Source: Maribacter cobaltidurans (GTDB taxonomy: Bacteria > Bacteroidota > Bacteroidia > Flavobacteriales > Flavobacteriaceae). Taken from it: DNA of 64,000 nt. The DNA lies in assembly GCF_002269385.1 (NCBI RefSeq), contig NZ_CP022957.1, forward strand, positions 3,773,001-3,837,000. The letters are read 5' to 3'. Both the position numbers and the translations under genes were made by a program. The notes under the pieces are model-generated. The model did not search any database, was not told where the DNA came from, and saw only the letters and a list, made by a program, of their open reading frames with translations. How positions within the stretch are numbered: position 1 is the stretch's first letter; each line of letters begins with the position of its first letter. Positions 35,441 through 60,915 of the stretch are shown piece by piece.

Positions 35441-35451
35441 ACCACTGACCC

Positions 35452-35730
35452 ATGGCAAAATTCTTTAGAAAAATTAGACTGAATTTACTTTCCGAAGGAA
35501 AAACTGGAAAGTACTTAAAATATGCCGTTGGAGAAATCATTCTTGTTGTTATTGGGATTTCCTCAAAGATGCCATCTTTACAGGAATTGGACATCGCCAC
35601 GGATAAAAAATTATTATCCGACCTATTCGCGACAAAAATGATGATCGGTGTTCAAAATGAGTTGATATTGGATACACAAAGCCGAAACCAGGAACTTATA
35701 GCTCTAGTGGAGGCCGAATTAAAAAAATAA
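35452..35730 (+). pseudogene. Internally deleted DUF6090-type gene
   Basis: 92 residues. The first ~36 residues carry the complete anchor of the family (MAKFFRKIRLNLLSEGKTGK, YLKYAVGEIILVVIGI) and the last ~15 resemble the usual C-terminus (RNQELIALVEAELKK), while the intervening ~150 residues are absent. The reading frame is intact, so a short product could be made, but the truncated hydrophobic segment and loss of the variable domain suggest an internal deletion derivative. It is followed 24 bp later by an unrelated membrane gene. Confidence 0.75.
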
Positions 35731-37846: not shown

Positions 37847-37870
37847 TTCATTATCCGAAACCGCTAACCA

Positions 37871-38656
37871 ATGATAAAATTCTTTAGAAAAATTAGACAG
37901 AAACTACTCTCTGAAAACAAATTCAGCAGGTATCTTATTTATGCCATTGGAGAAATATTTTTGGTTGTGATAGGGATTCTCATTGCATTGCAAGTAAACA
38001 ACTTCAATGAAACAAAAAAAGATGTCAAAAAGGAACAAATCATTTTAACTCAATTAAAAGAAGTTTATCAAGCCAATCTAATCCAATTAGAACAGAAAAT
38101 GCTAATGAGAGAGAATATCGTCAAATCTGCTCTAAATATTTATAAGGCTATAGATAATCCCAACCAAATTTCTCGAGCTAGTTTGGTAAAGTCAATAGCT
38201 GAAATAGATATTGACCCAACATTTAATCCAGTACAAAGTGATTTGACCAATTCTGAAAATCTTCGTTTGATAACAAATCAAAATTTAAAACAGTTATTAT
38301 CAAATTGGTCATCTGACATAGTTACACTTCAAGAACTTGAATCAATTTGGACTAATCAAATGTACCAACAGCTAGAACCGTTTATCAGAGAATTAGGTAT
38401 TTCGAGAGAAATTGCTAACAACTTTGTAAATAATACTGAACATATTTGGTTATTAGACGATAATAAAAAAAAGTTAGAAATTCCAAGCGGTAATTCACAG
38501 AACACAGTTTCTAAAATGAATATAATTGATAATAAAGAATTGGAAGGTATGGCTTCATTTGCAATAATATACAATCATTCTGCTAATGCTCAATCTGAAG
38601 CATTAATAATAAGAATTAAGCAAATAATCGAATTGATTGATAAAGAAATTGATTAA
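37871..38656 (+). CDS. DUF6090-type membrane-anchored protein, cassette copy A
   Basis: 261 residues. Residues 1-50 are the family anchor: a basic amphipathic start (MIKFFRKIRQKLLSENKFSR), YLIYAIGEIFLVVIGILIAL as the single membrane helix, then NNFNE. The rest is predicted helical, with the central family motif present as NSENLRLITNQNLKQLLSNW (about 118-140). The C-terminus ends with IIELIDKEID. It is A/T-rich. Family function is unknown; topology suggests a cytoplasmic N-terminus and an exported C-terminal domain. It is a single gene between repeat copy 4 and the attC-like element at 38670. Confidence 0.85.
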   Translation: MIKFFRKIRQKLLSENKFSRYLIYAIGEIFLVVIGILIALQVNNFNETKKDVKKEQIILTQLKEVYQANLIQLEQKMLMRENIVKSALNIYKAIDNPNQISRASLVKSIAEIDIDPTFNPVQSDLTNSENLRLITNQNLKQLLSNWSSDIVTLQELESIWTNQMYQQLEPFIRELGISREIANNFVNNTEHIWLLDDNKKKLEIPSGNSQNTVSKMNIIDNKELEGMASFAIIYNHSANAQSEALIIRIKQIIELIDKEID

Positions 38657-38669
38657 AAAAATAACGAAA

Positions 38670-38802: not shown

Positions 38803-38839
38803 TTCATTCCCAATAACTATCGGAACCAACTAATAACCA

Positions 38840-38956
38840 ATGATAAAATTCTTTAGATTATCGAAACTAAATTTTGCAAAGCAAAATCAAATGTCCGGTG
38901 GACATTTGGTTGAGATAGCCGCTTGCGGAAGAAAAAGAAACCTGAAATATGATTAA
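38840..38956 (+). other. Overlapping 38-codon ORF: vestigial DUF6090 start
   Basis: ATG at 38840 opens MIKFFRLSKLNFAKQNQMSG, then GHLVEIAACGRKRNLKYD, and stops inside the next gene's first codons. The leader and first six codons (accaATGATAAAATTCTTTAGA) equal the start of the cassette A gene, after which hairpin-rich DNA intervenes (attttgcaaagcaaaat; aaatgtccggtggacattt). It may be a decoy or leader peptide, or a scar of recombination between DUF6090 starts. The same arrangement recurs at 43066-43182. Confidence 0.5.
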
Positions 38957-39740
38957 GTTCTTCAGACAAATAAGACAAAACCTACTTTCCGAGGGTAAAA
39001 CAGCAAAGTATCTTAAATATGCAATTGGAGAGATAATTCTGGTGGTTATCGGTATTTTAATTGCTTTACAAATTAACTCTTGGAATGACAATCGCAAGGC
39101 AAAAATCGTGGAAAACAACTTCTTTGCCAATGTCCTACTCGACTTGGAAAAGGATGATGAAAAGCTTAATTATTACCATAGGTTTCACCAAAAGAGAATT
39201 CAATATTTAGATACACTTTTAACGTATGTTAGAAATCCGAATCGGACCATGGGTATTGAAAAATTTGGTATGTATGTAGAACCTTTGTTTTATTCAACAA
39301 ATGCTACCAATTACGCAACGACATTCGAATCGGCTAAATCGATGGGCATTTTCAATAATTTTCGTGAAAAAGATATCGTAAAAGAGCTCTCTCAGTACTA
39401 TGCCGACTTTGTTTTAGTAGAGAATTCTTTTAGCGCAATAACAAGAATAGTTGAAAATCAATTTGAACCTTTAATGTATACATTACCAGAAGGTTATATT
39501 ACGGAGACTACGGGGACATTGGTAGTTAGTGAAGAGGATGTACAGAAGTTCTATCAGAAGGTCTCGTCAATAAAGGACAATCGAGACATTACCTATGATT
39601 ATGATAGGATTTTAAAAACGTCAAGCTTTGAAAATTATTTGATCGGGGATATGGGGAGGTCGTATGGAGCAATTGGTATCATAGAAACTAGAAAGTCGAT
39701 TTTAAATCGATTATTGGAACGTATAAAGGAACACGACTAA
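38949..39740 (+). CDS. DUF6090-type membrane-anchored protein, cassette copy B
   Basis: 263 residues. Anchor MIKFFRQIRQNLLSEGKTAK with helix AIGEIILVVIGILIALQINS. The variable part differs from all other copies, with the central motif as SMGIFNNFREKDIVKELSQY and a C-terminal run ETRKSILNRLLERIKEHD. The 5' end is nearly identical to the gene at 43175 (about 90 bp into the coding region), but the rest is unrelated. The start overlaps the vestigial ORF from 38840. Confidence 0.85.
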   Translation: MIKFFRQIRQNLLSEGKTAKYLKYAIGEIILVVIGILIALQINSWNDNRKAKIVENNFFANVLLDLEKDDEKLNYYHRFHQKRIQYLDTLLTYVRNPNRTMGIEKFGMYVEPLFYSTNATNYATTFESAKSMGIFNNFREKDIVKELSQYYADFVLVENSFSAITRIVENQFEPLMYTLPEGYITETTGTLVVSEEDVQKFYQKVSSIKDNRDITYDYDRILKTSSFENYLIGDMGRSYGAIGIIETRKSILNRLLERIKEHD

Positions 39741-39789
39741 ATTAAAAATAACAAAAGCCCATACCTTTTTACTCCGTTGACGAAGTAGC

Positions 39790-39957: not shown

Positions 39958-39977
39958 AAAATTTAAAACCAACCGAA

Positions 39978-41914: not shown

Positions 41915-42753
41915 TACTCTTTGTAGAGCCGATCCAGTGGACTGAAAGGCTTTTGCCTGCCCAGTTGTGCCACGTGAAGGTAGGTCAGTGTGGTCTGTAT
42001 ATCTGCGTGCCCCAAAAGGTCCTTTACACTCATAATATCCAAGCCCATTTCCAGAAGGTGGGTAGCATAACTGTGGCGCAGGCTGTGGGTGGTCACTTCC
42101 TTTTGAATACCACTATGTTTACGGGCTTCCCGTACAATCCAGCGAACCCCTTGGGTAGAAAGCGGGACTGGACGCCCTTCGGTATTGTTCCCAGTGAAGC
42201 ACCAGGTGCAAGGATTTTCTGCCGCAAGATATGTTTTAAGTCCGCGGATCTGCATCCTCGACAAGGGTACATACCGATCTTTCCTGCCTTTGCCTTGGCG
42301 GACGTGAAGCATCATACGATCAAAATCCAGATCTTTTAACTGTAGGTTGCACAGTTCAAAACAGCGCAGTCCGCAGCCATAAAGCAGCGCCAATACCAGA
42401 CGGTGCTTCAGTAGTTTTGGGGCTTTTAAGAGTTGCTTTACTTCCCTACAACTTAAAACTACAGGGAGTTTTTTGGGACGCTCAATAGCGGGGAGCATTA
42501 CCTGCATCTCTTTACGATTTGATATCCGGTAGGCATACCTCAGACCATAAACGGTATGCTTGAAGAAGCTGCTCGACGGGGTCTTGTGCCGGGACTTTAA
42601 AACATGTAGATAATCCAGCACCTGTTCTTCATCCAGATCGAGTGGACTGCACTTAAAATGCAGGGCTATGTGTGAAAGACAGCGGGCATAGTTGGTCAGG
42701 GTGCTTTGGCTTTTGCCCGATAGTTCAACAGAACGTTTTAGTTTGAGATACAA
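41914..42753 (-). CDS. Tyrosine recombinase of the IS91 element
   Basis: 279 residues. An N-terminal SAM-like core-binding domain (SGKSQSTLTNYARCLSHIAL) and a catalytic domain with Arg in YGCGLRCFELCNLQLKD, HSLRHSYATHLLEMGLD (HxxR) and the C-terminal GHADIQTTLTYLHV (His and nucleophile Tyr). It is typical of the XerC/D-like integrase gene carried upstream of the transposase in many Bacteroidota IS91 elements. The additional domain that marks integron integrases (IntI) between the catalytic motifs was not seen. It may assist resolution or circularisation. Confidence 0.9.
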   Translation of the reverse strand: MYLKLKRSVELSGKSQSTLTNYARCLSHIALHFKCSPLDLDEEQVLDYLHVLKSRHKTPSSSFFKHTVYGLRYAYRISNRKEMQVMLPAIERPKKLPVVLSCREVKQLLKAPKLLKHRLVLALLYGCGLRCFELCNLQLKDLDFDRMMLHVRQGKGRKDRYVPLSRMQIRGLKTYLAAENPCTWCFTGNNTEGRPVPLSTQGVRWIVREARKHSGIQKEVTTHSLRHSYATHLLEMGLDIMSVKDLLGHADIQTTLTYLHVAQLGRQKPFSPLDRLYKE

Positions 42754-42899
42754 TTCCTGGAATTCTGGAACACGTTCACAGGCTCGTTCGATCAGGGTAC
42801 TACTTTTTTTTCATAATTTGCTAAATATTAGTTTTATACATCTTAAAGGTAGTGAATGGAGATTTAGATAACTCCTGAAGCTACCTTTAGGTTTAGTTC

Positions 42900-43028
42900 A
42901 ACAATGTATAACCGCAATTACGGCGGATTCGACTACGTCCGAATCCACTCGGAATTGCTAAGGTCCGTGCCAAACCGAAAATTAACACATATTAACCCGT
43001 AACTGACGGTTATATGAGACCGTTGTGC
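42900..43028 (+). repeat. attC-like imperfect hairpin element 2 (interrupted by IS91)
   Basis: From AACAATGTATAACCGC to the R'-like core GTTGTGC at 43022-43028, colinear without gaps with 38674-38802. Stem ggattcg…cgaatcc is perfect here. The first bases of the R'' core lie left of the IS (…GCGTTC at 40511), so the IS sits in the core. Confidence 0.65.
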
Positions 43029-43065
43029 TTCATTCCCGATAACTATCGGGACCAACTACTAACCA

Positions 43066-43182
43066 ATGATAAAATTCTTTAGATTATCGAAACTAAATTT
43101 TGCAAAGCAAAATCAAATGTCCGGTGGAAATTTGGTTGAGATAGCCGCTTGCGGAAGAAAAAGAGACCTGAAATATGATTAA
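43066..43182 (+). other. Overlapping 38-codon ORF, second copy
   Basis: Same structure as 38840-38956, with two substitutions, one of which (gtggaaattt) breaks the hairpin arm seen in copy one. It ends inside the first codons of the 43175 gene. Confidence 0.45.
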
Positions 43183-43951
43183 GTTCTTCAGACAAATTAG
43201 ACAAAACCTACTTTCCGAGGGTAAAACAGAAAAGTATCTAAAATACGCGATTGGAGAAATTATACTTGTAGTTATTGGTATTCTTATTGCCCTTCAGATT
43301 AATAATTGGAATGAAGATCGAAAAGTACGAAAACTAGAAGCACAGATTTACACAGAACTAAAAAGCGATTTACTACAAACCAGAAGTGATATAAACGAAA
43401 CAATTTCTAAACATAGAGAAATATTTAAATCAAGTCAGCAGCTTATAACTGATATCTATGATAAGAAATCAAATTCTCAAAAAATTTATGAGGCACTGAC
43501 AAATTCCAGTCTTGAGTTTCAAATTATTCCTAAAACAAGTGCTTTTGAAAATTTAAAGAACATTGGATTAAACACCTTATCCAATGACAGCTTACGTATT
43601 GCCATAACCAATTTATTTCAATTGAATTTAAAGCGATTGGATGATGAACTTGGGATGAGACAAGCTGAAATTAATATGACAAAGCTTATTCAGCCTTTTC
43701 TATTCAAATATTTGATTGCGGATTATAGTCAACCCACAAAATATGGGTTTGTACATTCTGACTCTATAGCTATTTACAAATTAAGAATAGCTAATTACGA
43801 TAAGTTTTTGGATGATAATGAGCTTATGAAGGCCTTGCAGTTAGCACTCTACAATAGAGGTCAAATAATTGATGAAGAAATAGAAACTGTTAGGGCAGTG
43901 GATAGCGTGATTCATGGAATTGAAGAAGAACTTGAAAAATTAAAAAAATAA
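43175..43951 (+). CDS. DUF6090-type membrane-anchored protein, cassette copy C
   Basis: 258 residues. Anchor MIKFFRQIRQNLLSEGKTEK, helix AIGEIILVVIGILIALQINN, then WNEDRK. The central motif is degenerate (FENLKNIGLNTLSNDSLRIA). The C-terminus ends GIEEELEKLKK. It is 4226 bp downstream of, and colinear with, copy B through its upstream element and first codons, showing duplication of the 5' segment followed by a different body. Confidence 0.85.
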   Translation: MIKFFRQIRQNLLSEGKTEKYLKYAIGEIILVVIGILIALQINNWNEDRKVRKLEAQIYTELKSDLLQTRSDINETISKHREIFKSSQQLITDIYDKKSNSQKIYEALTNSSLEFQIIPKTSAFENLKNIGLNTLSNDSLRIAITNLFQLNLKRLDDELGMRQAEINMTKLIQPFLFKYLIADYSQPTKYGFVHSDSIAIYKLRIANYDKFLDDNELMKALQLALYNRGQIIDEEIETVRAVDSVIHGIEEELEKLKK

Positions 43952-44047
43952 CTAAAGCACAATAGGAACTGTAACTAATGGCGCAGTTTTCCAAGACTTG
44001 TGAAATTTAAGTTTGGCAAGTACGTACCTAGAAGCTCACCGCATTGA

Positions 44048-44235
44048 TGCCTAAGCGCGGTCACTGAGCAGCTTTCCCTAATAGGTGGTTGAGCGTAGTC
44101 GAAACCACATCTCTGGAAAGCGAAGGCACATATTTCCCCTTTTCCTTGCCCAAACCAATTTTTTGTAGGATTTTTAAGGCACTTCCCCTAAAATAGAAAT
44201 AAACGTACTTAGGTACGTTTATACAATTGTTAGCC
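44048..44235 (+). repeat. Array repeat, copy 6
   Basis: Contains agcgcggtcactgagcag, the perfect palindrome ggtggttgagcgtagtcgaa followed by accac, core aattttttgtaggattttta, and 3' block taggtacgtttatacaattg, ending in GTTAGCC at 44229, 20 bp before the next start. The interval 43952-44047 begins AAAGCACAAT, an R''-like string. Confidence 0.85.
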
Positions 44236-44254
44236 ACAAGCAAACCAAGACCTT

Positions 44255-45433
44255 ATGAAAATAGCATTCCATTTTGACGCACAACACGAATCGTTGGCTA
44301 CTTTCTACGGACTTGATTTACAAGAAAAAATTTTTAGTCTAATTTTAAATCACAGAAACTTATCTGCCAATTCCAAAGTTTTTGTTGGAGACTTGCTAAT
44401 GATGATGATAGCAAGAGATAAAACAGTAATCAGCGAAACTCAATTTTCATATTCATTTAATGAAGAAAAATATTTGAATGTTTTCTATCAGTGGGCAAAT
44501 CCTCAAAATGTTACTTGGAAAAGATACTCTGAGGAAAATATTGAGCATTCTTTCGGTAAGGATATTTACGTTATTTGCTTTGAAAGTATCGACTTAAAAA
44601 CTGCTGAATATCTCAATGACGAATTAGAGAGTAACCTAGCTTATCTCGGAGCACTCGAAGTAGATGATTCATCCGAAATTCATTGGATTCTTTATAGTCA
44701 ATCATTAATAGCATTAGGTAGAATTCACGGTGATGAATTTAACTTATTTCATCAACCAGAAGATGACACAGAAGACTTATTAATTAACGATTATGAAACT
44801 TTTGGTTTTAAGAAAGTAAATCCGGAATCATTAAATGGACGCTATACAATATTTGATACTTATTCGAATTTTGAGGAGGCAAGGAGAATTGCGGAATGGA
44901 AAAGAAATTCGGGTGGACTTTTAGCTTTTATTGCGGATGAAATAGTCTCAAAACTTTCTGATATTGCGCCAGATATTGGGAATAAACTATGGTCTGCACT
45001 TAAAACATTTGAAGATTCTGAAACAAATGAACAGCTCGCCCAAGTAACTGCTTCGTGCCGAAGAATTTTTGAATATGTCGTTGACTGTATATTTCCTCCA
45101 ACGGATGAAAAAATGGACGGTCATTCTTTAAAAGCTGATAAATATAAGAATCGCCTTTTTGCATACGCTGATACTTCAAGAAAGAGCAGCACAAATATTG
45201 ACTTGATTGTCGCTACAACCAAAACCCTATTTGAACAATGGGATAAACTGAATAGTTTAGCTAACAAAGGAGTACATAGCGAAGTATTTCGAGCCGAAAC
45301 AAGAAGATGTTTATTGAGGACAATAATGCTATTGGACGATATAGTTTCTTTAAAAGAAAAACCATTTGACATAAAGCCGAATTTAAACTTTGATGATATA
45401 TTCGGAGAAAATGCCAGTGGCTACACCGTATAA
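44255..45433 (+). CDS. Unrecognised two-part protein, possible abortive-infection type
   Basis: 392 residues with no signal peptide. The N-terminal ~190 residues (FHFDAQHESLATFYGLDLQE) look like a mixed alpha/beta domain of unknown family. The C-terminal ~170 residues are helical, with VTASCRRIFEYVVDCIFPPT, DKYKNRLFAYADTSRKS, and NSLANKGVHSEVFRAETRRC. I associate this helical layout with proteins annotated near phage-defence genes, but no catalytic motif (HEPN RxxxxH, nuclease or NTPase) is obvious. The role is therefore an inference. It is single cargo of repeat copy 6. Confidence 0.6.
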   Translation: MKIAFHFDAQHESLATFYGLDLQEKIFSLILNHRNLSANSKVFVGDLLMMMIARDKTVISETQFSYSFNEEKYLNVFYQWANPQNVTWKRYSEENIEHSFGKDIYVICFESIDLKTAEYLNDELESNLAYLGALEVDDSSEIHWILYSQSLIALGRIHGDEFNLFHQPEDDTEDLLINDYETFGFKKVNPESLNGRYTIFDTYSNFEEARRIAEWKRNSGGLLAFIADEIVSKLSDIAPDIGNKLWSALKTFEDSETNEQLAQVTASCRRIFEYVVDCIFPPTDEKMDGHSLKADKYKNRLFAYADTSRKSSTNIDLIVATTKTLFEQWDKLNSLANKGVHSEVFRAETRRCLLRTIMLLDDIVSLKEKPFDIKPNLNFDDIFGENASGYTV

Positions 45434-45439
45434 AATTAA

Positions 45440-45555
45440 TTGCTAGTTCTAGCCTATTTACGATAATGCTCGCGGACTTTCTATCTGTGAATTATTTGCT
45501 AAATTTAGTACCAAACCAACGCAACCAATCTTATAAATCAACGTTACGTTAGCTT
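45440..45555 (+). repeat. Possible degenerate array junction
   Basis: It begins ttgctagttctagcc seven bases after the preceding stop and ends caacgttacgttagctttg; GCTAG…GTTAGC are weakly complementary ends. No strong internal stem was seen, so it is only tentatively grouped with the other junctions. Confidence 0.35.
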
Positions 45556-45632
45556 TGTAAGAACCTACATCACATGATCTACAGGACAAAAAATGGGTTT
45601 ACAGTAATTAATAATCTTTTAACATCGAAATC

Positions 45633-46085
45633 ATGAAAAAGATTGTTTTTGTATTGCTATTTGTGTCCATACCAACACTTCTGTCCGCTCAATTAATTGA
45701 TAATGGAAAATCGAGCAATAATCCAATCAAAACGACGGCGGATACAGGATTTAAAAATACTGTGATGTATTATTCCCATATTCCATATAGCCCATATGGT
45801 ATTAAGTATTCTTATTGTAAATCTTGGGGATTTTATATAAGTGCAACATATGATTTTGAGACAGTGGATGGTGATGCATTTCTAAATGCTGGTGTCGTTA
45901 AATCTATTACTAATAAACTACGTGGTTATCTTGGATCAGGTTATAATCCTCTTTGGGATGAGGCAAGTGTGGAAACTGGGGTAACCTTTGTTTTTGGAAA
46001 TTTTGCTTTGGATACAGGAGGAGGATTTAACTTTGTTGAACCTGAATATAGTTACATAAATTTAGGGGTTGGATTTAATTTCTAA
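45633..46085 (+). CDS. Secreted small beta-rich protein, unknown
   Basis: 150 residues with signal peptide (MKKIVFVLLFVSIPTLLSAQ). The mature part has alternating beta-strand pattern and Gly/aromatic content (YGIKYSYCKSWGFYISATYD, ETGVTFVFGNFALDTGGGFN), ending in aromatic NLGVGFNF, a typical outer-membrane-barrel last strand. It resembles a short outer-membrane beta-barrel of about six to eight strands. It converges with the EEP gene. Confidence 0.7.
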   Translation: MKKIVFVLLFVSIPTLLSAQLIDNGKSSNNPIKTTADTGFKNTVMYYSHIPYSPYGIKYSYCKSWGFYISATYDFETVDGDAFLNAGVVKSITNKLRGYLGSGYNPLWDEASVETGVTFVFGNFALDTGGGFNFVEPEYSYINLGVGFNF

Positions 46086-51626: not shown

Positions 51627-52961
51627 TTAATTATATCCCGTATAAATGGCTACTACAATACTTAGGGCTCCCAATGCCAGCATAAGTAGCAAAGGTTTCC
51701 AAGCAAATCGGAACCATTTGTTATAGGGAATACCGCAAACAGCCAAAATGGCCATCAATGCGCCGTTCGTGGGCACGATCAAATCCCCCATGATGGCCCC
51801 ATATTGGTAGGCCAGTACACACGTCTGTCTGGAAATACCGATTAAATCCGAAAGCGGTACTAAAATGGGCATGGTCAAAATAGCCTGACCGGAGTAACTG
51901 GGTATGGGAAAATGTAAAATAGCATGGGAGACCATCATCAACACTCCGGAGACAGAGGCTGATAGGTATTGTAGGGGACCAAAAAGTCCGTAAACAATGG
52001 AATCAATGATCATGCCCTCCTTTAAGACCATGGAAATACTGTTTGCCAAGCCAATGATCATGGCTGCAAAAATCATTTCCTTAAATCCGTTGACATAGGC
52101 TTCTCCCGTACCGTTCACACCCAATTTTCCCAAAAGACCGGAGACCACTCCCAAGGCAAAAAAGGAGGCGGACATTTCCATAAAGCCCCAATCCAACTGT
52201 AGAAGCCCATACATGACAATGATAAACGTTAAACCTAATAGGGTGAGAATGATCTTGGAATTAAGGGACATTTTTTCGTGGGGAGTGGACGCTTCAACTT
52301 TTTCCATCCTGTTTTTGGCAGCATAGCGGATCAGGTAAATGACCCAAACCAAAAAGGCAATCCCGAGAACTACTAATCGGAACCCGCTTCCCGAAAGCAA
52401 AGGGACACCGGCTTCCTGTTGTGCTATAATTACACCAAATGGGTTTGAAGGACTAAAGGAACTGCCCAACACCGTAGATCCGTAGCTCATATAAATAGTA
52501 GTATAGGTGTTGAAGCCCAAACTTTTTCCAAAAATGAGCAGTACGGGCATCATGGCAATCACTTCCTCTTGCATGCCTATACTTACCCCCGCCGCCGTAA
52601 ACAGTAGAGAGACGATGAATAATGACAGACCTTCCCTTCCTTTGAGAACGTTGACAATCTTATGCAATCCTTCGGATAACGCCCCGGTTTTCTCAATAAC
52701 GAAAAAGCAACCCCCTAACAATAATATTAGGACAATGGTGTCCGCTCTTTCCGCAACTCCGTTGGGAATGGTTAGCATCATGTCAAAGGCGGATAAATGA
52801 TCTCCATCCGTTTCTTGGTATGAATTGCTGACTACTGTTGTGATTCCCGTATCTTCATCCGTAATTCTTTGGTAGCTACCTTGGGGTATGATAAAGGTGA
52901 GCACCCAAGCAAATAGGACGACCCCGATGATGATGACAAAGGCATTTGGAAAGTTTTTCAT
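51627..52961 (-). CDS. YfcC-family transporter
   Basis: 444 residues, about 12 hydrophobic segments. FAWVLTFIIPQGSYQRITDE, GGCFFVIEKTGALSEGLHK, GSTVLGSSFSPSNPFGVIIA and GQAILTMPILVPLSDLIGI fit the YfcC/anaerobic C4-dicarboxylate (DcuC-like) group. It exports or takes up small carboxylates or peptides. It is the last gene of the 63.96-51.6 kb minus-strand unit, 39 bp after the DUF6090 run. The repeated 'NPFGV…' signature and the hairpin loops are intact. Confidence 0.85.
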   Translation of the reverse strand: MKNFPNAFVIIIGVVLFAWVLTFIIPQGSYQRITDEDTGITTVVSNSYQETDGDHLSAFDMMLTIPNGVAERADTIVLILLLGGCFFVIEKTGALSEGLHKIVNVLKGREGLSLFIVSLLFTAAGVSIGMQEEVIAMMPVLLIFGKSLGFNTYTTIYMSYGSTVLGSSFSPSNPFGVIIAQQEAGVPLLSGSGFRLVVLGIAFLVWVIYLIRYAAKNRMEKVEASTPHEKMSLNSKIILTLLGLTFIIVMYGLLQLDWGFMEMSASFFALGVVSGLLGKLGVNGTGEAYVNGFKEMIFAAMIIGLANSISMVLKEGMIIDSIVYGLFGPLQYLSASVSGVLMMVSHAILHFPIPSYSGQAILTMPILVPLSDLIGISRQTCVLAYQYGAIMGDLIVPTNGALMAILAVCGIPYNKWFRFAWKPLLLMLALGALSIVVAIYTGYN

Positions 52962-53000: not shown

Positions 53001-53738
53001 TTACTCTATAGTTGTTTCCTTCAAGATTTTCTGTATTAATATTTTGGCTTGTGTATAGGCCATATCAGACTCTTTAAGGACATAGAGTTTGTCATCGATA
53101 TAGTTTTCAAATTGAATATTTTGAAGCAACGACGCATTGTTCATTTTTAGTTGGGAGGGCCTGTATGGAAATGTTTTGGATTTGGTATCTATGTTTCTAA
53201 GCGAACCATGTTCCCGTATATATTCGATTAAATTGATATTCGTTTTTTCGGTTTGATCCATCGTTTCCTGTAATTCCTTAAAAAATCGGGACCAATTGAA
53301 CAAAAGAATTTTAAGCTCTGGATTGTTCAATTTTGAGAGTCCGCCAGAGTTTTGCAGGTCGTTCAAAACAAATTCACTGGGCTTCCAAGAAGGACTTTCT
53401 ATGACATAATGCAAAAGGCTGTCGATTGGGTCGGTTTCTTGAAAATCCTCTTCCTTGAACTTTGCAAAAATGGTTTCCGTAGCCAAAATGGTGCGTTTCA
53501 AAATGGTATTTATGGAATCCAAGTCCCTTAAATTTTCTTGGAATTCAGTGTTTAGATTTTGCACGGTGATTTTTTCCCGGTTATTCTCAAGTCGTTCCTC
53601 GTTCCAGTTATTTATTTGGAGTGCAATCAAAATACCGATGACCACGAGTACGATCTCGCCAATGGCATATCTAAAATATTTGGAGGTTTTGTTTTCCATG
53701 ATGAGATTCTGCCGAATTTTTCTAAAGATTTTAATCAT
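53001..53738 (-). CDS. DUF6090-type protein, operon copy 9 (last)
   Basis: 245 residues. MIKIFRKIRQNLIMENKTSK start, helix AIGEIVLVVIGILIALQINN, then a helical domain with central motif as NSGGLSKLNNPELKILLFNW (about 128-150) and ending LIQKILKETTIE. Its first ~110 coding bases are almost identical to those of the gene at 58375 (including the MENKTSK version of the anchor). The remainder is different. 12 bp from the preceding copy. Confidence 0.85.
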   Translation of the reverse strand: MIKIFRKIRQNLIMENKTSKYFRYAIGEIVLVVIGILIALQINNWNEERLENNREKITVQNLNTEFQENLRDLDSINTILKRTILATETIFAKFKEEDFQETDPIDSLLHYVIESPSWKPSEFVLNDLQNSGGLSKLNNPELKILLFNWSRFFKELQETMDQTEKTNINLIEYIREHGSLRNIDTKSKTFPYRPSQLKMNNASLLQNIQFENYIDDKLYVLKESDMAYTQAKILIQKILKETTIE

Positions 53739-53750
53739 GATGCGATAGTA

Positions 53751-54485
53751 TTAGTTCCCTTTTTGATAGGAGGACAGGGTTTTGTCAAGTCTGGGTAGCA
53801 GTTCCTGGATAGCCTGATTTCCTTCCTTTAAGGCAAGAAGGGTACCTTCCTCGTTTTTAATATTTACATTTAGGGACGTGAGAAAATAAAGATCCGATTT
53901 GAGTTGTTCATAATCTGTGGGAATAGCCTCTATACCCCAAGTATAATCTCTAAAATGGTTGCGGGCATAGGGGAGGAACACGGTGCGGAACTCAAAATCG
54001 TCGTCATTGGTATCATCATTGATTTTTTTTACGGCAGTGGTATAATAACTTGTCAACTTGTTACGAAGTTCTTGATCTTGTAGGAGTTCTATTCCTAATT
54101 TCTTTATCAATTGATAGCCATTATCCACTAACACGATACGCCTGGCCAACATAACACGTCCTAGGTGATAATTAATGGAATCATAAGGAATATCACCTGC
54201 TTCAAGTTTATTGATTACGGTGTATTGTATATTGATATCTTCTAACCTTTTGCTGTAGGTTTCCTCAATGCTAAGGCTATCGTTAATGAGATTACTACGT
54301 ATTTCGGTAAGAATTTTCACGATTTCACCATCAACTTTCCTGTTTTCATTCCAGTTGTTGATCTGTAAGGCAATCAGGATACCAATGACAACCAGCACAA
54401 TCTCGCCAACAGCATATTTGAAATATTTTAATGTTTTGCCTTCATCTAGAAGGTTTTGACGAATTTTACGGAAGAATTTAATCAT
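53751..54485 (-). CDS. DUF6090-type protein, operon copy 8
   Basis: 244 residues. Anchor MIKFFRKIRQNLLDEGKTLK, helix AVGEIVLVVIGILIALQINN, NENRK. The central motif is reduced (NGYQLIKKLGIELLQDQELR). It overlaps the upstream copy by 8 bp (ATGATTAA type). Ends LPRLDKTLSSYQKGN. Confidence 0.84.
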   Translation of the reverse strand: MIKFFRKIRQNLLDEGKTLKYFKYAVGEIVLVVIGILIALQINNWNENRKVDGEIVKILTEIRSNLINDSLSIEETYSKRLEDINIQYTVINKLEAGDIPYDSINYHLGRVMLARRIVLVDNGYQLIKKLGIELLQDQELRNKLTSYYTTAVKKINDDTNDDDFEFRTVFLPYARNHFRDYTWGIEAIPTDYEQLKSDLYFLTSLNVNIKNEEGTLLALKEGNQAIQELLPRLDKTLSSYQKGN

Positions 54486-55281
54486 GGTTTATGCGTTCTA
54501 ATAACAGATTTAGGTTCTCAAGTCGTAACATGGTGGCCATAAGATCATTTGTTTTACCTGATTCATTGCCAATTAAATAGCGCAAATCATTTTTTAAACT
54601 TTCATCTTTAAGCAATGCTTCAACAACCGATTTGGCGTAATTGTGGTCCAGTTGTATATTACATTCCTTTGGTAGCCGCGGAAAGTAACTATTTCCGGTT
54701 TTTACATAAGTATCTCCACAGTATGATCTAATCTTTGTCTGAACGTCATCGGGCATTTTTCCTCTTAAATTTTTTCTATATGTATTTTCAAGTATAGTCG
54801 CGCCAGATTCTGACCACCCAATATCATAATATCTAATTAATGCGGTCTTTACACTATCGTTTTGGATGAGGTTGATTTGACCCGAAGCAATTAACTCCTG
54901 ATAGGTTGATGACGCAGAATAGGGGTCTAGTAATTGGCTAGCCTGATACATATCTACAAGATTGGCCACAGGATCAGGGTTAGCATTGGAAGAATTTTCA
55001 AAAACGGCGACAGCAGATTTGGCATGTTCGCTAACCTGTTTGGAATAGTTTAAAGTGGCTTCAATAATTAATTTTTCTTCCCTAACATCATCTAAAAGAC
55101 GCTCATAGTATTGAAATTCTAAATTCTTGTTGAGACGATCTTGATTCCAATTGTTCACCTGAAGGGCCAATAGAATTCCGATCATCACCAATGCAATTTC
55201 GCCAATAGCATATTTCAAGTATTTAGTGGTTCTGTTTTCCATGATGAGATTCTGCCGGATTTTTCTAAAGAATTTTATCAT
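54478..55281 (-). CDS. DUF6090-type protein, operon copy 7
   Basis: 267 residues, the longest copy in the operon. Anchor MIKFFRKIRQNLIMENRTTK, helix AIGEIALVMIGILLALQVNN, WNQDRL. The central motif is well conserved (LIASGQINLIQNDSVKTALI). It contains two internal Cys, RSYCGDTYVKTGNSYFPRLP and KECN, not seen in the other copies, which could form an extracytoplasmic disulphide. An 89-bp spacer separates it from copy 6. Confidence 0.85.
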   Translation of the reverse strand: MIKFFRKIRQNLIMENRTTKYLKYAIGEIALVMIGILLALQVNNWNQDRLNKNLEFQYYERLLDDVREEKLIIEATLNYSKQVSEHAKSAVAVFENSSNANPDPVANLVDMYQASQLLDPYSASSTYQELIASGQINLIQNDSVKTALIRYYDIGWSESGATILENTYRKNLRGKMPDDVQTKIRSYCGDTYVKTGNSYFPRLPKECNIQLDHNYAKSVVEALLKDESLKNDLRYLIGNESGKTNDLMATMLRLENLNLLLERINHD

Positions 55282-55370
55282 GGGTCAATGGTGGGTCTTT
55301 TTAATAAAAATTAGTTTTGGATGTCCTTGTCGTTTCTTGCTTTTAACACCAATAAACATTGAAATCGTTG

Positions 55371-56126
55371 CTATTTTGTTTCTTCTAAATATTTTAAGAT
55401 GGTTTTGGCCTTTTGGGTATATTTTTCAAAATCTTGCCTTATCAATATTCTGTAAGCGCCTATCATTCCCACTTGAGTATTTAAATAATCATTGTTCTTG
55501 ATTTGATTCCATTGTACATGGTATTTAGAAACATTGGATTCAATCGGTTTTTGGAATGTATAGAAATCCTGATATAGCTTTGGACTATGAAATTTAGACA
55601 TTTCATCACGGTAATCATACCAGACTGTTTTGAGGATTCGGGAATTCAAGAGTTGAAACCAAGAATTGTTTACATAATATTCGTCCAAAAGCTTTTTTAA
55701 TTTCACATCATTGAATAGGTGAATATTATTACTGTTGATCAAGTCGTTATAGGTAGAGGATATAAGGGATTTATTGGGAATGTAACCACAAAATACGATT
55801 GAATTTGTAAGCCTTAAGGTATCTATTTCCTTTAGTGAATCGTCTAAATAGGAGGCGAGGTAAAATCCTTCATTTTCGGCGTTGGTATTTATGGTATTTA
55901 GTGTCTCTAAGTTTTGGATGTCCTCCTTCAAATCAGCAATTAAATTTTCTACCAAGGATTGTTTAACTTCATTGTTCTTTCTTTCTTCGTTCCAATTGTT
56001 CACTTGAAGCGCAATTAAAATACCAATGACCACTAGGATAATCTCACCTAAAGCATATTTGAAGTATTTGGTGGTTTTACCCTCTGCTAAAAGGTTTTGA
56101 CGAATTTTACGGAAGAATTTAATCAT
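55371..56126 (-). CDS. DUF6090-type protein, operon copy 6
   Basis: 251 residues. MIKFFRKIRQNLLAEGKTTK, helix ALGEIILVVIGILIALQVNN, NEERKNN. Central motif LINSNNIHLFNDVKLKKLLD. The C-terminal half is aromatic-rich (SRILKTVWYDYRDEMSKFHS, LYQDFYTFQKPIES). It overlaps copy 5 by 8 bp. Confidence 0.85.
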   Translation of the reverse strand: MIKFFRKIRQNLLAEGKTTKYFKYALGEIILVVIGILIALQVNNWNEERKNNEVKQSLVENLIADLKEDIQNLETLNTINTNAENEGFYLASYLDDSLKEIDTLRLTNSIVFCGYIPNKSLISSTYNDLINSNNIHLFNDVKLKKLLDEYYVNNSWFQLLNSRILKTVWYDYRDEMSKFHSPKLYQDFYTFQKPIESNVSKYHVQWNQIKNNDYLNTQVGMIGAYRILIRQDFEKYTQKAKTILKYLEETK

Positions 56127-56886
56127 GGTCCAATTCTTTCTTTACAAGGGTTAAAAAATGCTCGAGTCTTTCTTTTAAAGGAATTAAAAAACCGGATTCT
56201 AAATGGTTGGCAGTGCCCAAAAAAGTCACTAGGTCAGACTCAAAGGCCTTTGACCTGAGCAAATCTTTGTTTGTATCCTCAAATGGGCTTTCCTGTAATT
56301 CTTTACCCAAATCGTTTTCTATAGCCTGGAGGATCATTCTCATGTTACCAATTTCCTTGGAACGTTCAAAACACAGAAGGCGTTGATCCTTAACGGCCGT
56401 TTCCTGTATGCTAATTCGATCAAGTTCTGATTCCCATGCAGACAGAAAGGTTGTGATTTCCCTATTGTGAATAACACTAAGATTACCAGAGGCGATAGCC
56501 TCATTGAGCACCCCTAGGCTGGGTCGGTAGACAGCATCTTTGGACAATGCGTTGAGCCATAGCTTTGAAATTTGACTATGGGAAAGGGAAGATTTCTCGG
56601 GTGCTAATTCATGCAACAAAAGTAAGCAGTTGGTAATGCGCTCGTTATTTACGGTTATGGTATTTTTCAAACGCTGTAGATTTCCATCAAATTCCTGTTG
56701 CAATGCCAAAAGCAAGGTTTGTTCCTTTGCGTTGTTCTTTCGTTTCTCGTTCCAAGTGTTTACCTGCAAGGCAATTAGAATTCCAATCACTACTAGTATA
56801 ATCTCTCCAAGAGCATATTTTAAATACTTGGTCGTTTTGCCCTCCGATAGCAGATTTTGTCTAATTTTTCGAAAGAATTTTATCAT
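56119..56886 (-). CDS. DUF6090-type protein, operon copy 5
   Basis: 255 residues. MIKFFRKIRQNLLSEGKTTK, helix as in copy 6, then TWNEKRKNN. Central motif AIASGNLSVIHNREITTFLS, followed by an amphipathic ELDRISIQETAVKDQRLL region. The N-terminal DNA is close to copy 6. Overlaps copy 4 by 4 bp (ATGA). Confidence 0.85.
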   Translation of the reverse strand: MIKFFRKIRQNLLSEGKTTKYLKYALGEIILVVIGILIALQVNTWNEKRKNNAKEQTLLLALQQEFDGNLQRLKNTITVNNERITNCLLLLHELAPEKSSLSHSQISKLWLNALSKDAVYRPSLGVLNEAIASGNLSVIHNREITTFLSAWESELDRISIQETAVKDQRLLCFERSKEIGNMRMILQAIENDLGKELQESPFEDTNKDLLRSKAFESDLVTFLGTANHLESGFLIPLKERLEHFLTLVKKELDHD

Positions 56887-57623
56887 GGGTTTTGGTTACC
56901 TGAAGGTTTTGAAAGTTCAATTATTTTATCCAAAGTGGCTTGTACTTTTTGTAGCTCACCGCTTGTATTCAAAATTTGATCCACCAAATCATACCTGCTC
57001 CTAACCAAATATTCAAACTCCAGTGTTTGAAGTGCATCAAAATCGTTTCGTTCATCTTTAAAATTGAGGTTCCAATCAAAATGCTTGGACAGATAAGGGT
57101 CGTATTGACTCCAAATATGATCTCTAGAAGCCAATTCTTCCTCTTGATAATCCGTAACCAAGTCATTCCAGGAAATCAATAGATCCCGCAAGGTTTCATT
57201 TTTTATGATATCGAAAGAAGATGTGCTGGCAAGGGCATTAATGCTCGTTTGCGTGGGGTTGAAGGTATTACCGCCGTAAGTCCACCAAAGCATAGTGGCC
57301 AATGAATCCAATGCTTCAGGTCCTGGTTTTGATTTTATTGGGAAAAGACCAATGACGCCGGTGCAATTTTTGAATACGACCTGATGCTGACCAACAACAG
57401 AGTCCAATTGCTTTTTATTCTGTGTAAACTCTTTATGAATATTGGCCAAGACAATAGTTTCTTTTTTCGAGTTTATACGATCTTCATTCCAATTATTTAT
57501 TTGAAGGGCGATTAGTATGCCGATGACTACTAGGATTATTTCTCCAATGGCGTAGAGCAGATATTTGCTGAATTTGTTTTCTGAGAGAAGCTGTTGCCGG
57601 ATTCGTCTAAAGAATTTGATCAT
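56883..57623 (-). CDS. DUF6090-type protein, operon copy 4
   Basis: 246 residues. Anchor MIKFFRRIRQQLLSENKFSK, helix AIGEIILVVIGILIALQINN, NEDRINSKK. The central motif is degenerate at the Gly (STSSFDIIKNETLRDLLISW). Four-base overlaps with both neighbours (ATGA) indicate translational coupling. Confidence 0.85.
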   Translation of the reverse strand: MIKFFRRIRQQLLSENKFSKYLLYAIGEIILVVIGILIALQINNWNEDRINSKKETIVLANIHKEFTQNKKQLDSVVGQHQVVFKNCTGVIGLFPIKSKPGPEALDSLATMLWWTYGGNTFNPTQTSINALASTSSFDIIKNETLRDLLISWNDLVTDYQEEELASRDHIWSQYDPYLSKHFDWNLNFKDERNDFDALQTLEFEYLVRSRYDLVDQILNTSGELQKVQATLDKIIELSKPSGNQNP

Positions 57624-58378
57624 TGGATATCGTTTTTAATCAGTGCAATGATGGTGTTGATCCGTTCCCTTAGGGGTTCGTAAAAGACCACATTCAGATT
57701 TCTGGAAGCCACGATAAATAGATACAGCTGGCTTTCAAATTCTTGATTTTCCAAGAATTTGAAATCGTTATTTGGAAATTTACTGGGAGTTGGGTCAAGA
57801 AGTGCGTCGTTGATGAGGTCAAGGTGTCTTCTGAAATTTCCTTCTTTTAAAAAGAAGTCGTGTCCTATATCCCGTCGCTCCACCACATAGTTTTCTTGCC
57901 TTTTGACACTCTCCAGGCCCGATTGCCATGCGGATAGCGCCTTGCGTAGTTTGTCATCTGAAAGCACACTGAGTCTTCCTGAGTTAATGATTTCTTGAAC
58001 GGTACCTTGATTGGGCAAATATCTGGGCTCTATTTTAAATATGCCGACCATTCTTTCCGAAAGTTCTTTTTCATGGATGTTTGTGACCGAAGGTCCTGTG
58101 TATTCGCCCAAGAGAATGCTATTTTCTATATTGGAATTGTTCAGGGCGATAACATCGTTCAACAGCTGAAGGTTGGATTCAAATTCCGCCAACAAGGCAT
58201 GCAATAGCTGCTGTTCCAGTTTTTTGCTTTTTTGTGTTTCGTTCCAATTGCTAATGGCAAGGGCAATCAAAATACCGATGACCACTAAAATTATTTCGCC
58301 AAGTGCATAGAGCATATATTTGGAAAACCTGTTTTCCTTGAGCAGCTGCTGGCGGATTTTTCTGAAAAATTTTATCAT
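57620..58378 (-). CDS. DUF6090-type protein, operon copy 3
   Basis: 252 residues. MIKFFRKIRQQLLKENRFSK, helix ALGEIILVVIGILIALAISN, NETQKSKK. Central motif IINSGRLSVLSDDKLRKALS, then WQSGLESVKRQENYVVERRD. Overlap of 4 bp with copy 2. Confidence 0.85.
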   Translation of the reverse strand: MIKFFRKIRQQLLKENRFSKYMLYALGEIILVVIGILIALAISNWNETQKSKKLEQQLLHALLAEFESNLQLLNDVIALNNSNIENSILLGEYTGPSVTNIHEKELSERMVGIFKIEPRYLPNQGTVQEIINSGRLSVLSDDKLRKALSAWQSGLESVKRQENYVVERRDIGHDFFLKEGNFRRHLDLINDALLDPTPSKFPNNDFKFLENQEFESQLYLFIVASRNLNVVFYEPLRERINTIIALIKNDIQ

Positions 58379-59124
58379 TTTACTACAGGTTTGGTTTCCT
58401 GAAGAATTTCTTCAATCAACATTTCGGTTTCATCCAACCTATCCATTATATTTTGATGCAGCCATAAGGAATTATCCAACAAATTTTCAAATTCCACTTT
58501 CTGAAACAAGGGATAGTAGTCCGGTTTCACTTTGGATTTCCCAGACCATGGATAATGGGCGTTACTGTCCATTTCCTTAAATGAAATATAAGGTAGCAAA
58601 AAGGGCAAAAGATGTTCATTGTTCCAGGCATCCAATTTGTCAAAACGTGTTTGTCTGATTTCAGATAGTGAATTCCAGTGGTATAAAAGTGAGGTGATGG
58701 AATCGTTTTCAAAAAGGTTAAGACGTCCGTTTTGCACGATACTGTTTACCGAATTGTTGGCAAATGCCAGTTCGTTAGAGGGAAAGGATTCAAAAAATAG
58801 GCTGTCTAAATTTTTGTTTGCGAGCTCTTCTTTTTTGGCCCCGATCAAACTAATCAATTCACTGGAAGATTTTATGGCCCTTTGCTCTTCAAGCCTAAAA
58901 TCCTCTACCAGTTTTTTATTGGTTTTGAACTCTACATGTAGTTTAGAAAGTAAAGCTTTTTTTTCGATATTGTTGATTCGGTCCTGGTTCCAATTATTAA
59001 TCTGCAAGGCAATCAAAATACCGATGACCACGAGTACAATCTCGCCAATGGCATATCTAAAATATTTGGAGGTTTTGTTTTCCATGATGAGATTCTGCCG
59101 AATTTTTCTAAAGAATTTTATCAT
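58375..59124 (-). CDS. DUF6090-type protein, operon copy 2
   Basis: 249 residues. MIKFFRKIRQNLIMENKTSK, helix AIGEIVLVVIGILIALQINN, NQDRINN. Central motif IVQNGRLNLFENDSITSLLY. The coding 5' end (58985-59124) is nearly identical to copy 9 (53600-53738), although the bodies diverge. Confidence 0.85.
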   Translation of the reverse strand: MIKFFRKIRQNLIMENKTSKYFRYAIGEIVLVVIGILIALQINNWNQDRINNIEKKALLSKLHVEFKTNKKLVEDFRLEEQRAIKSSSELISLIGAKKEELANKNLDSLFFESFPSNELAFANNSVNSIVQNGRLNLFENDSITSLLYHWNSLSEIRQTRFDKLDAWNNEHLLPFLLPYISFKEMDSNAHYPWSGKSKVKPDYYPLFQKVEFENLLDNSLWLHQNIMDRLDETEMLIEEILQETKPVVK

Positions 59125-59133
59125 AATGAATGG

Positions 59134-59907
59134 TTATAGTTTCGCATTGATGGTGGATAAAAGTTCTTCGGCTTCATCCTTGATTTTTTGTATCCTGAGC
59201 TCGTTCGATTTTAATAAAATAATCCGCATGGAAATAGCATTTATTATTTCAAACTCCTTATTGGGGTCATCCAAACTATTTTCAAGGGTGCTGGCCATTT
59301 TTTTGGTCAAACCTTGTTGATCGGTATTATCTGATGGGAAACCAAAATTTTCCAAATTCACGATAATCGCTGATTTTAATATGGGGAAGATTTGATTGTA
59401 ATTCACGTTTTCTACATTTCCATTTATTTTTCTTGCTGTGGATTCGGAATTTAGATAATACGTTATGATGTCAGATTTAAGGTTCTTCTCCCTAATAAGA
59501 TTAATGTGCCCGGTTGTGTTTAACTCGTTGAATGTTCTATTGACTTCCGGGTAACTATTGGTATACAGTAAAAAGCTTAATTTTTTATTGATACTGTCAA
59601 TTTGCAGAAGCTTCTCCCTCTGAGTGTAATCGGTAAGGATAGATTCCCCCGTTTCAATAAGTTGGTCATAGAAAACAGCGCGATCATCAAATAAGGAGAG
59701 TTGCTTCCCTAAATCCTCTTGTAGTCCGTAGAGATACTCTTTTTCTTTGGTAGCGTTTTTGGAATTTTCGTTCCAATTATCTAGTTGCAAGGCAATTAAA
59801 ATTCCGACCACCACCAAGACTATCTCACCTATGGCGTATAGGAAGTATTTGGAAAACCTGTTTTCCTCGAGCAGCTGCTGGCGGATTTTTCGGAAAAATT
59901 TTATCAT
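59134..59907 (-). CDS. DUF6090-type protein, operon copy 1 (first)
   Basis: 257 residues. MIKFFRKIRQQLLEENRFSK, helix AIGEIVLVVVGILIALQLDN, NENSKNATKEKEY. Central motif LNTTGHINLIREKNLKSDII. Nine bp after the metallophosphoesterase, so the DUF6090 run is expressed from the upstream hydrolase operon rather than from its own promoter. Confidence 0.85.
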   Translation of the reverse strand: MIKFFRKIRQQLLEENRFSKYFLYAIGEIVLVVVGILIALQLDNWNENSKNATKEKEYLYGLQEDLGKQLSLFDDRAVFYDQLIETGESILTDYTQREKLLQIDSINKKLSFLLYTNSYPEVNRTFNELNTTGHINLIREKNLKSDIITYYLNSESTARKINGNVENVNYNQIFPILKSAIIVNLENFGFPSDNTDQQGLTKKMASTLENSLDDPNKEFEIINAISMRIILLKSNELRIQKIKDEAEELLSTINAKL

Positions 59908-59916: not shown

Positions 59917-60915
59917 TTAATGTATCAATGAACCACTTGAGGGCAGTTTCCCTTTTTTGTCCAAAATACCGTCCATTTTTAAGTGGGTGATGATTGGTTT
60001 ATTGGCCATTCTCACCAGGGAAATATGATCAAAGGCCATGGAATCTTGGGCTTGTTGGGATCCACCGGTGGTGCCAAGTATGATATAATCCCGGTTGTTC
60101 CTTATTCTATGGGAAAAGGAATGGATATGGCCATTGATTACGGTATATGGTCTATCGGCCAAAAGCTTTTCCAAGGGATTTAAACCCTTTTCATCTTCCC
60201 GCTGCCAAAGCGGTTTATGCATGAGCACAAAAGTCCATGTAACATCAGGATTTTCTTCTAGAACCTTCTTAAAATATTCAAATTGTTCCAAACCCATACC
60301 ACCTAGTTGACGCTCCGGCATGCTGTAATATTCCGTCTCCTCATACACGCCTTCTATTTCCCCGGCGATAACTTTTAGGGCTTTCGCACGTGCCTCATAG
60401 ATTTCCACCATGCGCTGTTCCTCGTAATCCTCGGAATCCATCATAAGAAAGAGTACATTATCGTACAGAAAATGATAGTATCTTGGGCCAAAACGTTGCT
60501 TCCAAATACTACGCATTGTGGGGTTGGTAAGGTCATGGTTGCCACCCAGATGGAAGAAGGGCATTTTTAATTTTGACGTCCTGTTTTCAAAGGAATCCCA
60601 TTCTTTGGCCAATTGCAGTGTATCCTCCGTTCCGCCATCTATGAGATCGCCAACACTCAGGACAAAGGTTGGGTCTAGGGCATTTAATTGCTCTACAGCA
60701 GCACTGTACACCCCGTCACGTTCACCTCCGTTTAAATCTGAAATGATGGCAAAGGTAAAGTCATCTTCCGTGGGCTCAAAAATAGCACTAGTCCATGGTT
60801 TCGGGCTTTCTCCAAGCGAATGTTCAAAAGTGGATTTCTCAATTTTCTGGTTGTTTTCCTTGCAACTGGAAAGTACAAGAAGAATAACAATCATTTTAAT
60901 CAAATAACCTTTCAT
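59917..60915 (-). CDS. Calcineurin-like metallophosphoesterase, lipoprotein
   Basis: 332 residues. Signal with lipobox (VLSSCKENN). Metal motifs: FAIISDLNGGERDG, LSVGDLIDGGTED, HLGGNHDLTNPT, WTFVLMHKPLW and VINGHIHSFSHR. The first motif has DLN where DxH is usual, as in some purple-acid-phosphatase relatives. It is a periplasmic phosphoester hydrolase. 9 bp before DUF6090 copy 1 and 23 bp after the M28 gene. Confidence 0.9.
   Translation of the reverse strand: MKGYLIKMIVILLVLSSCKENNQKIEKSTFEHSLGESPKPWTSAIFEPTEDDFTFAIISDLNGGERDGVYSAAVEQLNALDPTFVLSVGDLIDGGTEDTLQLAKEWDSFENRTSKLKMPFFHLGGNHDLTNPTMRSIWKQRFGPRYYHFLYDNVLFLMMDSEDYEEQRMVEIYEARAKALKVIAGEIEGVYEETEYYSMPERQLGGMGLEQFEYFKKVLEENPDVTWTFVLMHKPLWQREDEKGLNPLEKLLADRPYTVINGHIHSFSHRIRNNRDYIILGTTGGSQQAQDSMAFDHISLVRMANKPIITHLKMDGILDKKGKLPSSGSLIH

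Follow-up and report, generated by a model that had tools for sequence, protein, structure and literature searches.

The 64,000-nucleotide stretch of Maribacter cobaltidurans DNA analysed here (the window; contig NZ_CP022957.1, positions 3,773,001 to 3,837,000) carries on its minus strand, at 53001-59907, nine consecutive open reading frames (ORFs) of 244-267 amino acids (aa), g1 to g9. All nine proteins match the Pfam family PF19578 (DUF6090), as an earlier note on this DNA had proposed; eight exceed the curated cut-off of 23.5 bits and g3 (54478-55281) falls narrowly below it at 22.8 bits. The genes share a near-constant N-terminal anchor followed by bodies of widely differing sequence, and comparison with related genomes points to the anchor as the place at which the bodies are exchanged.

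The DUF6090 array and its relatives

The array junctions measure, in order of transcription, 9, -4, -4, -4, -8, 89, -8 and 12 bp, and this spacing suggests a single operon, with a possible break at the 89-bp gap. The earlier description of genes that abut or overlap by 4-8 bp save at that gap thus holds for the gap itself and for the five of eight junctions that overlap (-8, -8, -4, -4, -4), the other two being gaps of 12 and 9 bp. Of the 23 DUF6090 matches in the complete 4.64 Mb genome, 12 fall in the window (Table 1). The thirteen members counted previously are reached only by including a truncated copy (35452), and the cassette-like region credited with four full copies beside it holds three (37871, 38949, 43175).

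Table 1. DUF6090 genes of the window and the flanking genes of the array; bodies are named by cluster (B numbers)
Feature	Position	Strand	Description
g9	59134..59907	-	DUF6090, 257 aa, body cluster B30; transcribed first in array
g8	58375..59124	-	DUF6090, 249 aa, body B2; structure predicted
g7	57620..58378	-	DUF6090, 252 aa, body B4; g7 anchor sits on body B5 in G016
g6	56883..57623	-	DUF6090, 246 aa, body B9; g6 anchor sits on body B1 in G022
g5	56119..56886	-	DUF6090, 255 aa, body B89; unpartnered in the genus set at 50% identity
g4	55371..56126	-	DUF6090, 251 aa, body B17
g3	54478..55281	-	DUF6090, 267 aa, body B5, two invariant cysteines; structure predicted
g2	53751..54485	-	DUF6090, 244 aa, body B6
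g1	53001..53738	-	DUF6090, 245 aa, body B1
Metallophosphatase (PF00149)	59917..60915	-	Upstream flank of array; partly mosaic between species
DcuC-type carrier (PF03606)	51627..52961	-	Downstream flank of array
Truncated DUF6090 copy	35452..35730	+	92 aa; internal deletion of a gene of 247 aa in L061 and L054
Full DUF6090 copy, cassette-like region	37871..38656	+	261 aa, body B28
Full DUF6090 copy, cassette-like region	38949..39740	+	263 aa, body B88
Full DUF6090 copy, cassette-like region	43175..43951	+	258 aa, body B10

The first ~48 residues of the 12 full window proteins are near-constant, with 24 invariant columns, in good agreement with the ~50-residue anchor first described. Two of its accompanying motifs are less general than was claimed: NWNE generally follows the membrane helix but reads NWNQ in g3 and g8, and the central motif SGxLxLIxNxxLxxxL, taken to be common to all, is degenerate in a number of bodies, g2 and g6 among them. 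Another weak motif, xEFExxL, is found close to the C-terminus of the bodies. Across the 66 pairs of window anchors mean identity is 78% in amino acids and 71% in nucleotides, and over codons 1-48 the mean nonsynonymous difference (pN) is 0.15 against a synonymous difference (pS) of 0.82, which argues that most of the window paralogues are old and that the anchor is maintained by selection on the protein. The g1/g8 pair is an outlier, with anchors 92-93% identical in nucleotides (pS 0.25) and bodies sharing ~22% of residues. Recent duplication of the whole array was considered and rejected, most window anchor pairs being saturated at that mean pS.

The same division into anchor and body is found in a pooled set of 651 genes, drawn from the genus loci and 72 of 78 named loci; ORFs below 200 aa, exact duplicates, ORFs without a start at the expected place and six named loci already present among the genus loci (L089-L092, L125, L160) were left out. 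Random pairs (400) from this set share on average 74% of residues in the anchor and 24% in the body, and clustering of the bodies at 50% identity gives 402 groups, of which 284 have a single member. Structure prediction, which the earlier note had suggested, was run for g8 and g3 from alignments of 83 and 89 sequences, with a mean predicted local distance difference test (pLDDT) score of 90.4 and 91.2. Each model has a short N-terminal helix, a 75-77-residue helix holding the membrane stretch, a mid-region of shorter elements that differs between the two, and, at the C-terminus, a long helix; the mid-region of g3 includes a beta hairpin between the two invariant cysteines. The bodies are as divergent as had been stated, yet homologous, the two modelled ones having one common predicted scaffold. 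Net charge averages +5.1 ahead of the membrane helix and approximately zero in the 20 residues past it, and a second hydrophobic segment occurs in only 2 of 629 genes (627 have none); by the positive-inside rule the body should therefore face the periplasm, with the N-terminus inside.

The number of DUF6090 matches among 36 genomes of the genus (the own genome included, some incomplete) ranges from 0 to 26, none being found in six, so that the variable copy number anticipated for the family is borne out. Within the family Flavobacteriaceae 161 of 249 sampled genomes have a match (with at most 13 candidates scored per genome); tandem runs reach 19 genes in the fetched loci, and 133 of the 651 genes are solo. 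At a search threshold of E<=1e-60 the flanking metallophosphatase is present in 8 of the 36 genus genomes and the DcuC-type carrier in 8, both occurring together in seven. Read from the phosphatase side, the window locus is B30 B2 B4 B9 B89 B17 B5 B6 B1. The corresponding loci are B31 B2 B5 B8 B1 in G002, with ~5 kb of other sequence before the phosphatase; B8 B2 B1 in Maribacter sp. PR1 (G022); B5 B6 B1 in M. flavus (G008); B15, a frameshifted B4 (two ORFs), a 129-aa B16, B2, B6, B9 and B1 in M. litopenaei (G012); B15 B33 B16 B2 B4 B9 and B17 B1 on two contigs of the draft G023; and B5 B1 in Maribacter sp. 4G9 (G016), which ends at a contig end and gives the carrier side only. Common flanks therefore enclose differing sets, of 9 (window), 5, 3, 3 and 8 ORFs including broken ones, with G023 and G016 partial, and B1 adjoins the carrier in all seven genomes whose carrier end was read. 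What changes among the relatives is which bodies are present and which anchor each carries. A tandem, probably co-transcribed set with constant anchor, variable body and variable copy number, as originally proposed, is well supported, and the sets are reshuffled at the same place in the relatives.

The anchor as a recombination joint

Among 238 gene pairs with bodies at least 70% identical, 80 are recent (body pS <0.35), and in 40 of these 80 the anchor pS exceeds the body pS by more than 0.3. Two control stretches, the final 44 codons and 44 codons from the middle of the gene, show such an excess in none of the pairs (0 of 80 each); both are themselves part of the body value. By setting, the anchor excess is present in 37 of 59 pairs in which both genes are tandem, 3 of 18 in which both are solo and 0 of 3 mixed pairs. 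Individual cases are extreme: body B5 of G008 and G016 differs at pS 0.05 beneath anchors at 0.97, and body B2 of G002 and G012 at 0.06 beneath anchors at 0.72.

Two junctions can be followed in the sequence. The B5 gene of G016 has the B2 tail upstream, the B4 anchor at its start as in the window, and body B5 from about nucleotides 120-140, an arrangement that fits the product of recombination between the B4 and B5 anchors, i.e. an anchor-to-anchor deletion. Body B1 of G022 carries a B9 anchor, with 96% identity over the stretch between the ATG and about NWNE; it is preceded by the B2 tail rather than the B4 tail that stands ahead of B9 in the window, so that on this reading at least one further event is needed. 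In 20 pairs hand-picked among the most discordant same-body pairs, the changepoint falls at codons 20-53 in 18 and at codons 70 and 73 in the other two. Site-specific recombination at a fixed point is not favoured, the spread of changepoints over codons 20-73 being that which homologous recombination predicts.

Among 58 pairs with the same upstream neighbour and unrelated bodies, anchor similarity rises above background chiefly at the 5' end (codons 1-9, 0.80 v 0.72; codons 10-18, 0.60 v 0.51; codons 28-36, 0.74 v 0.72). In the 75 pairs with the same body and unrelated upstream neighbours it is above background everywhere, with the largest rise towards the 3' end (codons 1-9, 0.78 v 0.72; codons 37-44, 0.85 v 0.75; codons 45-52, 0.79 v 0.51). 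This pattern agrees with crossing-over inside the anchor. Pairs of different bodies with anchors at least 92% identical number 18, and 13 of them lie in one locus.

The start of each gene is also where its predecessor commonly ends. Among 431 tandem junctions (gap <300 bp), the overlap is 8 bp in 114 and 4 bp in 103; at these 217 the stop codon of the upstream gene (TAA in 111, TAG in 3, TGA in 103) falls within the opening 8 nucleotides of the gene that follows, so that an exchange anywhere past those nucleotides spares the end of the preceding gene. The placing of the stop at the joint may have been selected for. Gene overlaps of 4 bp are common in bacteria.

The earlier note proposed dN/dS, the ratio of nonsynonymous to synonymous substitution, as a check on the bodies; the outcome does not support their fast diversification. 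Same-body orthologues give pairwise values of 0.03-0.36 in the defined rows, bar one pair at 0.71 (pS 0.01), six saturated rows being undefined, and the two body families that were searched widely are conserved across genera. Diversifying selection on the bodies is thus unsupported, and the bodies are best described, from these comparisons, as old families under purifying selection and not as hypervariable alleles. Uniform purifying selection with fixed copy number, which had been set against an immunity or recognition role, is found as to its first half, the copy number being far from fixed. Bodies B1, B2, B5 and B6 differ at pS 0.05-0.38 between G008 or G022 and the other examined genomes, vs 0.66-0.76 for a hemL-like gene and 0.64-0.82 for a cyclase, which argues that several bodies crossed species after the split of the species and their core genes. 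Taken together, the evidence makes it highly probable that the anchor serves as a common recombination joint through which bodies are gained, lost and moved between species, the body families themselves being old, conserved modules.

Possible functions of the repertoire

Arrays of varied immunity genes without toxins are a feature of the acquired interbacterial defence (AID) clusters of gut Bacteroidales, which bring together many unrelated families and have a recombinase in the cluster. The DUF6090 array is unlike these in being a single family with no recombinase among its genes: no such ORF lies between 53001 and 59907, and a tyrosine recombinase is found at 41914-42753, ~10 kb away. A more direct precedent for its organization is offered by the tipC and esaG type VII secretion system (T7SS) immunity arrays of Streptococcus and Staphylococcus, described (PMC9484751) as tandem, non-identical genes that vary in copy number (tipC reaching 15) and recombine through conserved blocks, copies being lost and gained; TipC is there a membrane-bound, outward-facing protein of a beta sheet and three helices. 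DUF6090 resembles these genes in that tandem paralogues vary in number at one locus and recombine through a conserved block, as the 40 of 80 against 0 of 80, the junctions and the changepoints indicate. It differs in that the tipC toxin is known and adjacent (PMC9484751) whereas none is recognised at the DUF6090 locus, in having a single 5' block where tipC has blocks at both ends and esaG at three places, and in exchange that runs between species and involves hundreds of body families. The lpl tandem lipoproteins of Staphylococcus aureus, as described in the same source (PMC9484751), recombine at a conserved region of ~130 nt, whereby the 3' portion of one gene becomes fused to the 5' portion of the following one; their joint is central and their anchor a lipid, whereas the DUF6090 joint is at the 5' end and its anchor a membrane helix.

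On the tipC/esaG precedent an immunity or recognition function for the DUF6090 repertoire is the favoured reading, advanced here tentatively. In the proposed explanation the nine genes would be an operon-like slice of a large open repertoire of inner-membrane-anchored, periplasm-facing proteins, each with an anchor, made up of a basic N-terminal tail and a single membrane helix, followed by a helical-bundle body of ~200 residues. Recombination at the anchor joint would move bodies between species, an incoming body receiving an equivalent anchor, and the stop within the start of the next gene would allow a body to be swapped while sparing the end of the preceding gene. The bodies may bind different external agents, and the array could be kept as a standing, reshufflable set of protections. 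The explanation as a whole, shuffling and immunity or recognition combined, has something less than an even chance of being right. The broader proposition, that marine Bacteroidota have in the DUF6090 arrays a major, as yet unnamed repertoire for recognition or immunity, with hundreds of specificities on an exchangeable anchor whose DNA is a splice joint with a built-in stop, traded between species, is more doubtful again.

A number of observations tell against one or another part of this explanation. Half of the 80 recent same-body pairs lack a large anchor excess, and the tandem/solo split has a Fisher value of 0.0009 that is indicative only, the pairs being non-independent. Pairs with the same body and different upstream genes are raised along the whole anchor, beyond the 3' end alone; in the genus set the nearest anchor is that of a same-body partner in 53 of the 93 genes having such a partner; and within runs of Maribacter genes the third positions of the anchor are only slightly more alike (0.522 over 105 same-run pairs) than elsewhere in the genome (0.464 over 804 pairs) or in other genomes (0.459 over 9684 pairs). 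A shared body is not always a recent transfer, B8 differing at pS 0.67 between G002 and G022. The carrier is mostly old (pS 0.73, window vs G008); the phosphatase is partly young with a mosaic 5' end, so that recombination is not limited to anchors and the recombining tract extends past the array on the phosphatase side (five phosphatase pairs with L016 were left out of this comparison). No DUF6090 gene is present in the fetched part of the G016 phosphatase contig stretch, or in the fetched stretches of the G028 carrier locus and the G003 phosphatase locus. The profile comparison of bodies is partly circular, the profiles having members in common. As to function, no toxin is recognised in the window flanks or among the large array neighbours, a result compatible with orphan arrays lacking a toxin, and defence genes are not evident among array neighbours; the bodies are conserved within families and not fast-evolving, unlike the variable faces described for TipC, and the beta sheet of TipC (PMC9484751) is not matched in the helical DUF6090 models. 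No direct evidence turned up for the immunity, recognition or decoy role suggested in the earlier note, PADLOC giving a best E above 0.02 for the nine proteins and the queries used finding no phage or viral match.

A close rival, itself rather unlikely, holds that the bodies are sensor modules, periplasmic ligand-binding bundles that report to a cyclase, a carrier or some other membrane partner, the repertoire tracking the variety of ligands; conservation of bodies within families would suit it. Foldseek finds no match at E<=0.001 in PDB or viral models, and a PDB sequence search with g5 gives a single match at E 0.37; for both models the natural structures among the best matches include four-helix sensor domains (NarQ, Vc1313, MCP2201, Tar/Tsr, Adeh_2942), with scores within the bundle background. 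DUF6090 is like the four-helix-bundle sensors Tar, NarQ and MCP2201 in the predicted continuation of a membrane helix into a periplasmic helical bundle, and unlike chemoreceptor and kinase sensors in having no second membrane helix, apart from the two exceptions given above, and no signalling part, the models ending at the last bundle helix. In six Maribacter genomes a gene with body B0 follows a neighbouring membrane class-III cyclase, and in G015, G097 and G208 the two stand in the opposite order; with both gene orders found, the linkage arose more than once. B0-like genes occur without a cyclase in other genomes, and a DUF6090 gene with another body lies near a cyclase in G003 and G022. In the M. 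cobaltidurans genome a solo B0 gene is located 7 bp downstream of such a cyclase (L022:1771-3642; C1 near 2.863 Mb).

Improbable, by comparison with the sensor reading, is an ordinary paralogue family, most of its members sharing a generic envelope job, spread by recombination and mobile elements, whose shuffling is a by-product of the conserved 5' sequence. The members that share a cassette-like region with an IS91-type transposase and a tyrosine recombinase nearby, the solo genes, the broken copies and the ordinary metabolic neighbours of the arrays (by best families only, aldehyde dehydrogenase, L-PSP, TPR proteins, M28 peptidases and carriers) are all in keeping with it, but the bodies are under purifying selection within families yet extremely diverse between them, and with 6 of 36 genus genomes having no match one generic essential job is therefore unlikely. 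That the bodies are phage exclusion proteins or decoys, blocking the entry of different phages at the inner membrane, is very improbable: the location and the large variable sets would suit such a role, but g5, the sole query, has no match in 50,697 phage records, none of the 72 pattern matches of two anchor patterns in viral contigs is a relative, and PADLOC finds no strong match to anti-phage models for the nine proteins (best E 0.024) and only few and generic ones (four models, at most seven matches) for 106 of 210 neighbours of loci with at least three genes in a row (107 drawn, one DUF6090 fragment left out). The same single query, g5, is without match in plasmids.

Recombination of tandem paralogues at conserved blocks is already known (PMC9484751). 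No paper was found under the name DUF6090, and neither listings nor the opening lines of abstracts described the family or comparable arrays in these bacteria; on these searches, the novelty lies in the DUF6090 family itself, in how large it is, in its use of one 5' anchor joint and in the exchange across species. If the modules are protections or receptors, each body would give access to a toxin, phage or ligand of marine bacteria that is as yet unknown. The arrangement offers a clean natural example of a gene family that appears to trade specificity domains between species at a constant joint.

Other DUF6090 copies and related genes

The cassette-like region of the window (34600-44300, plus strand) has intergenic repeats of ~70-110 bp in up to six copies, with DinB-like, glyoxalase-like and DUF6090 genes among them; an Rfam scan of 34000-46000 gave no match up to E 0.5. 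A 300-bp repeat at 38673 and 42899 (94% identical) contains, at 38840 and 43066 and directly 5' of a full DUF6090 gene in each case, a DUF6090 start remnant whose first six codons match those of full genes and whose remainder is unrelated. An IS91-type transposase (Y2_Tnp, Zn_Tnp_IS91) and, directly adjoining it, the tyrosine recombinase are inserted among the cassette-like genes on the minus strand (together 40784-42753).

Some longer relatives have an additional C-terminal domain, which is clear in one (DUF6197, L149:2768-3973) and weak in others (DUF3471, L118:5916-6974; CBM30, L152:7547-8827). Beside one DUF6090 array, ORFs at L105:8432-9193 and L105:13858-14580 have a different but similar-looking membrane anchor and perhaps represent a sister family. 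A related lipoprotein-like gene of ~556-560 aa is lodged between DUF6090 genes in four loci of different genera (L102:11499-13172, L106:7581-9263, L108:5003-6673 and L121:3192-4862), the L102 copy, the sole one scanned, having no Pfam match. Finally, two tandem DUF6090 genes adjoin an aconitase-like ORF on a contig labelled uncultured Kangiella (L144:9239-10786), their anchors differing at 1 of the first 40 residues; the other large ORFs of this contig look gammaproteobacterial, an apparent transfer out of Bacteroidota.

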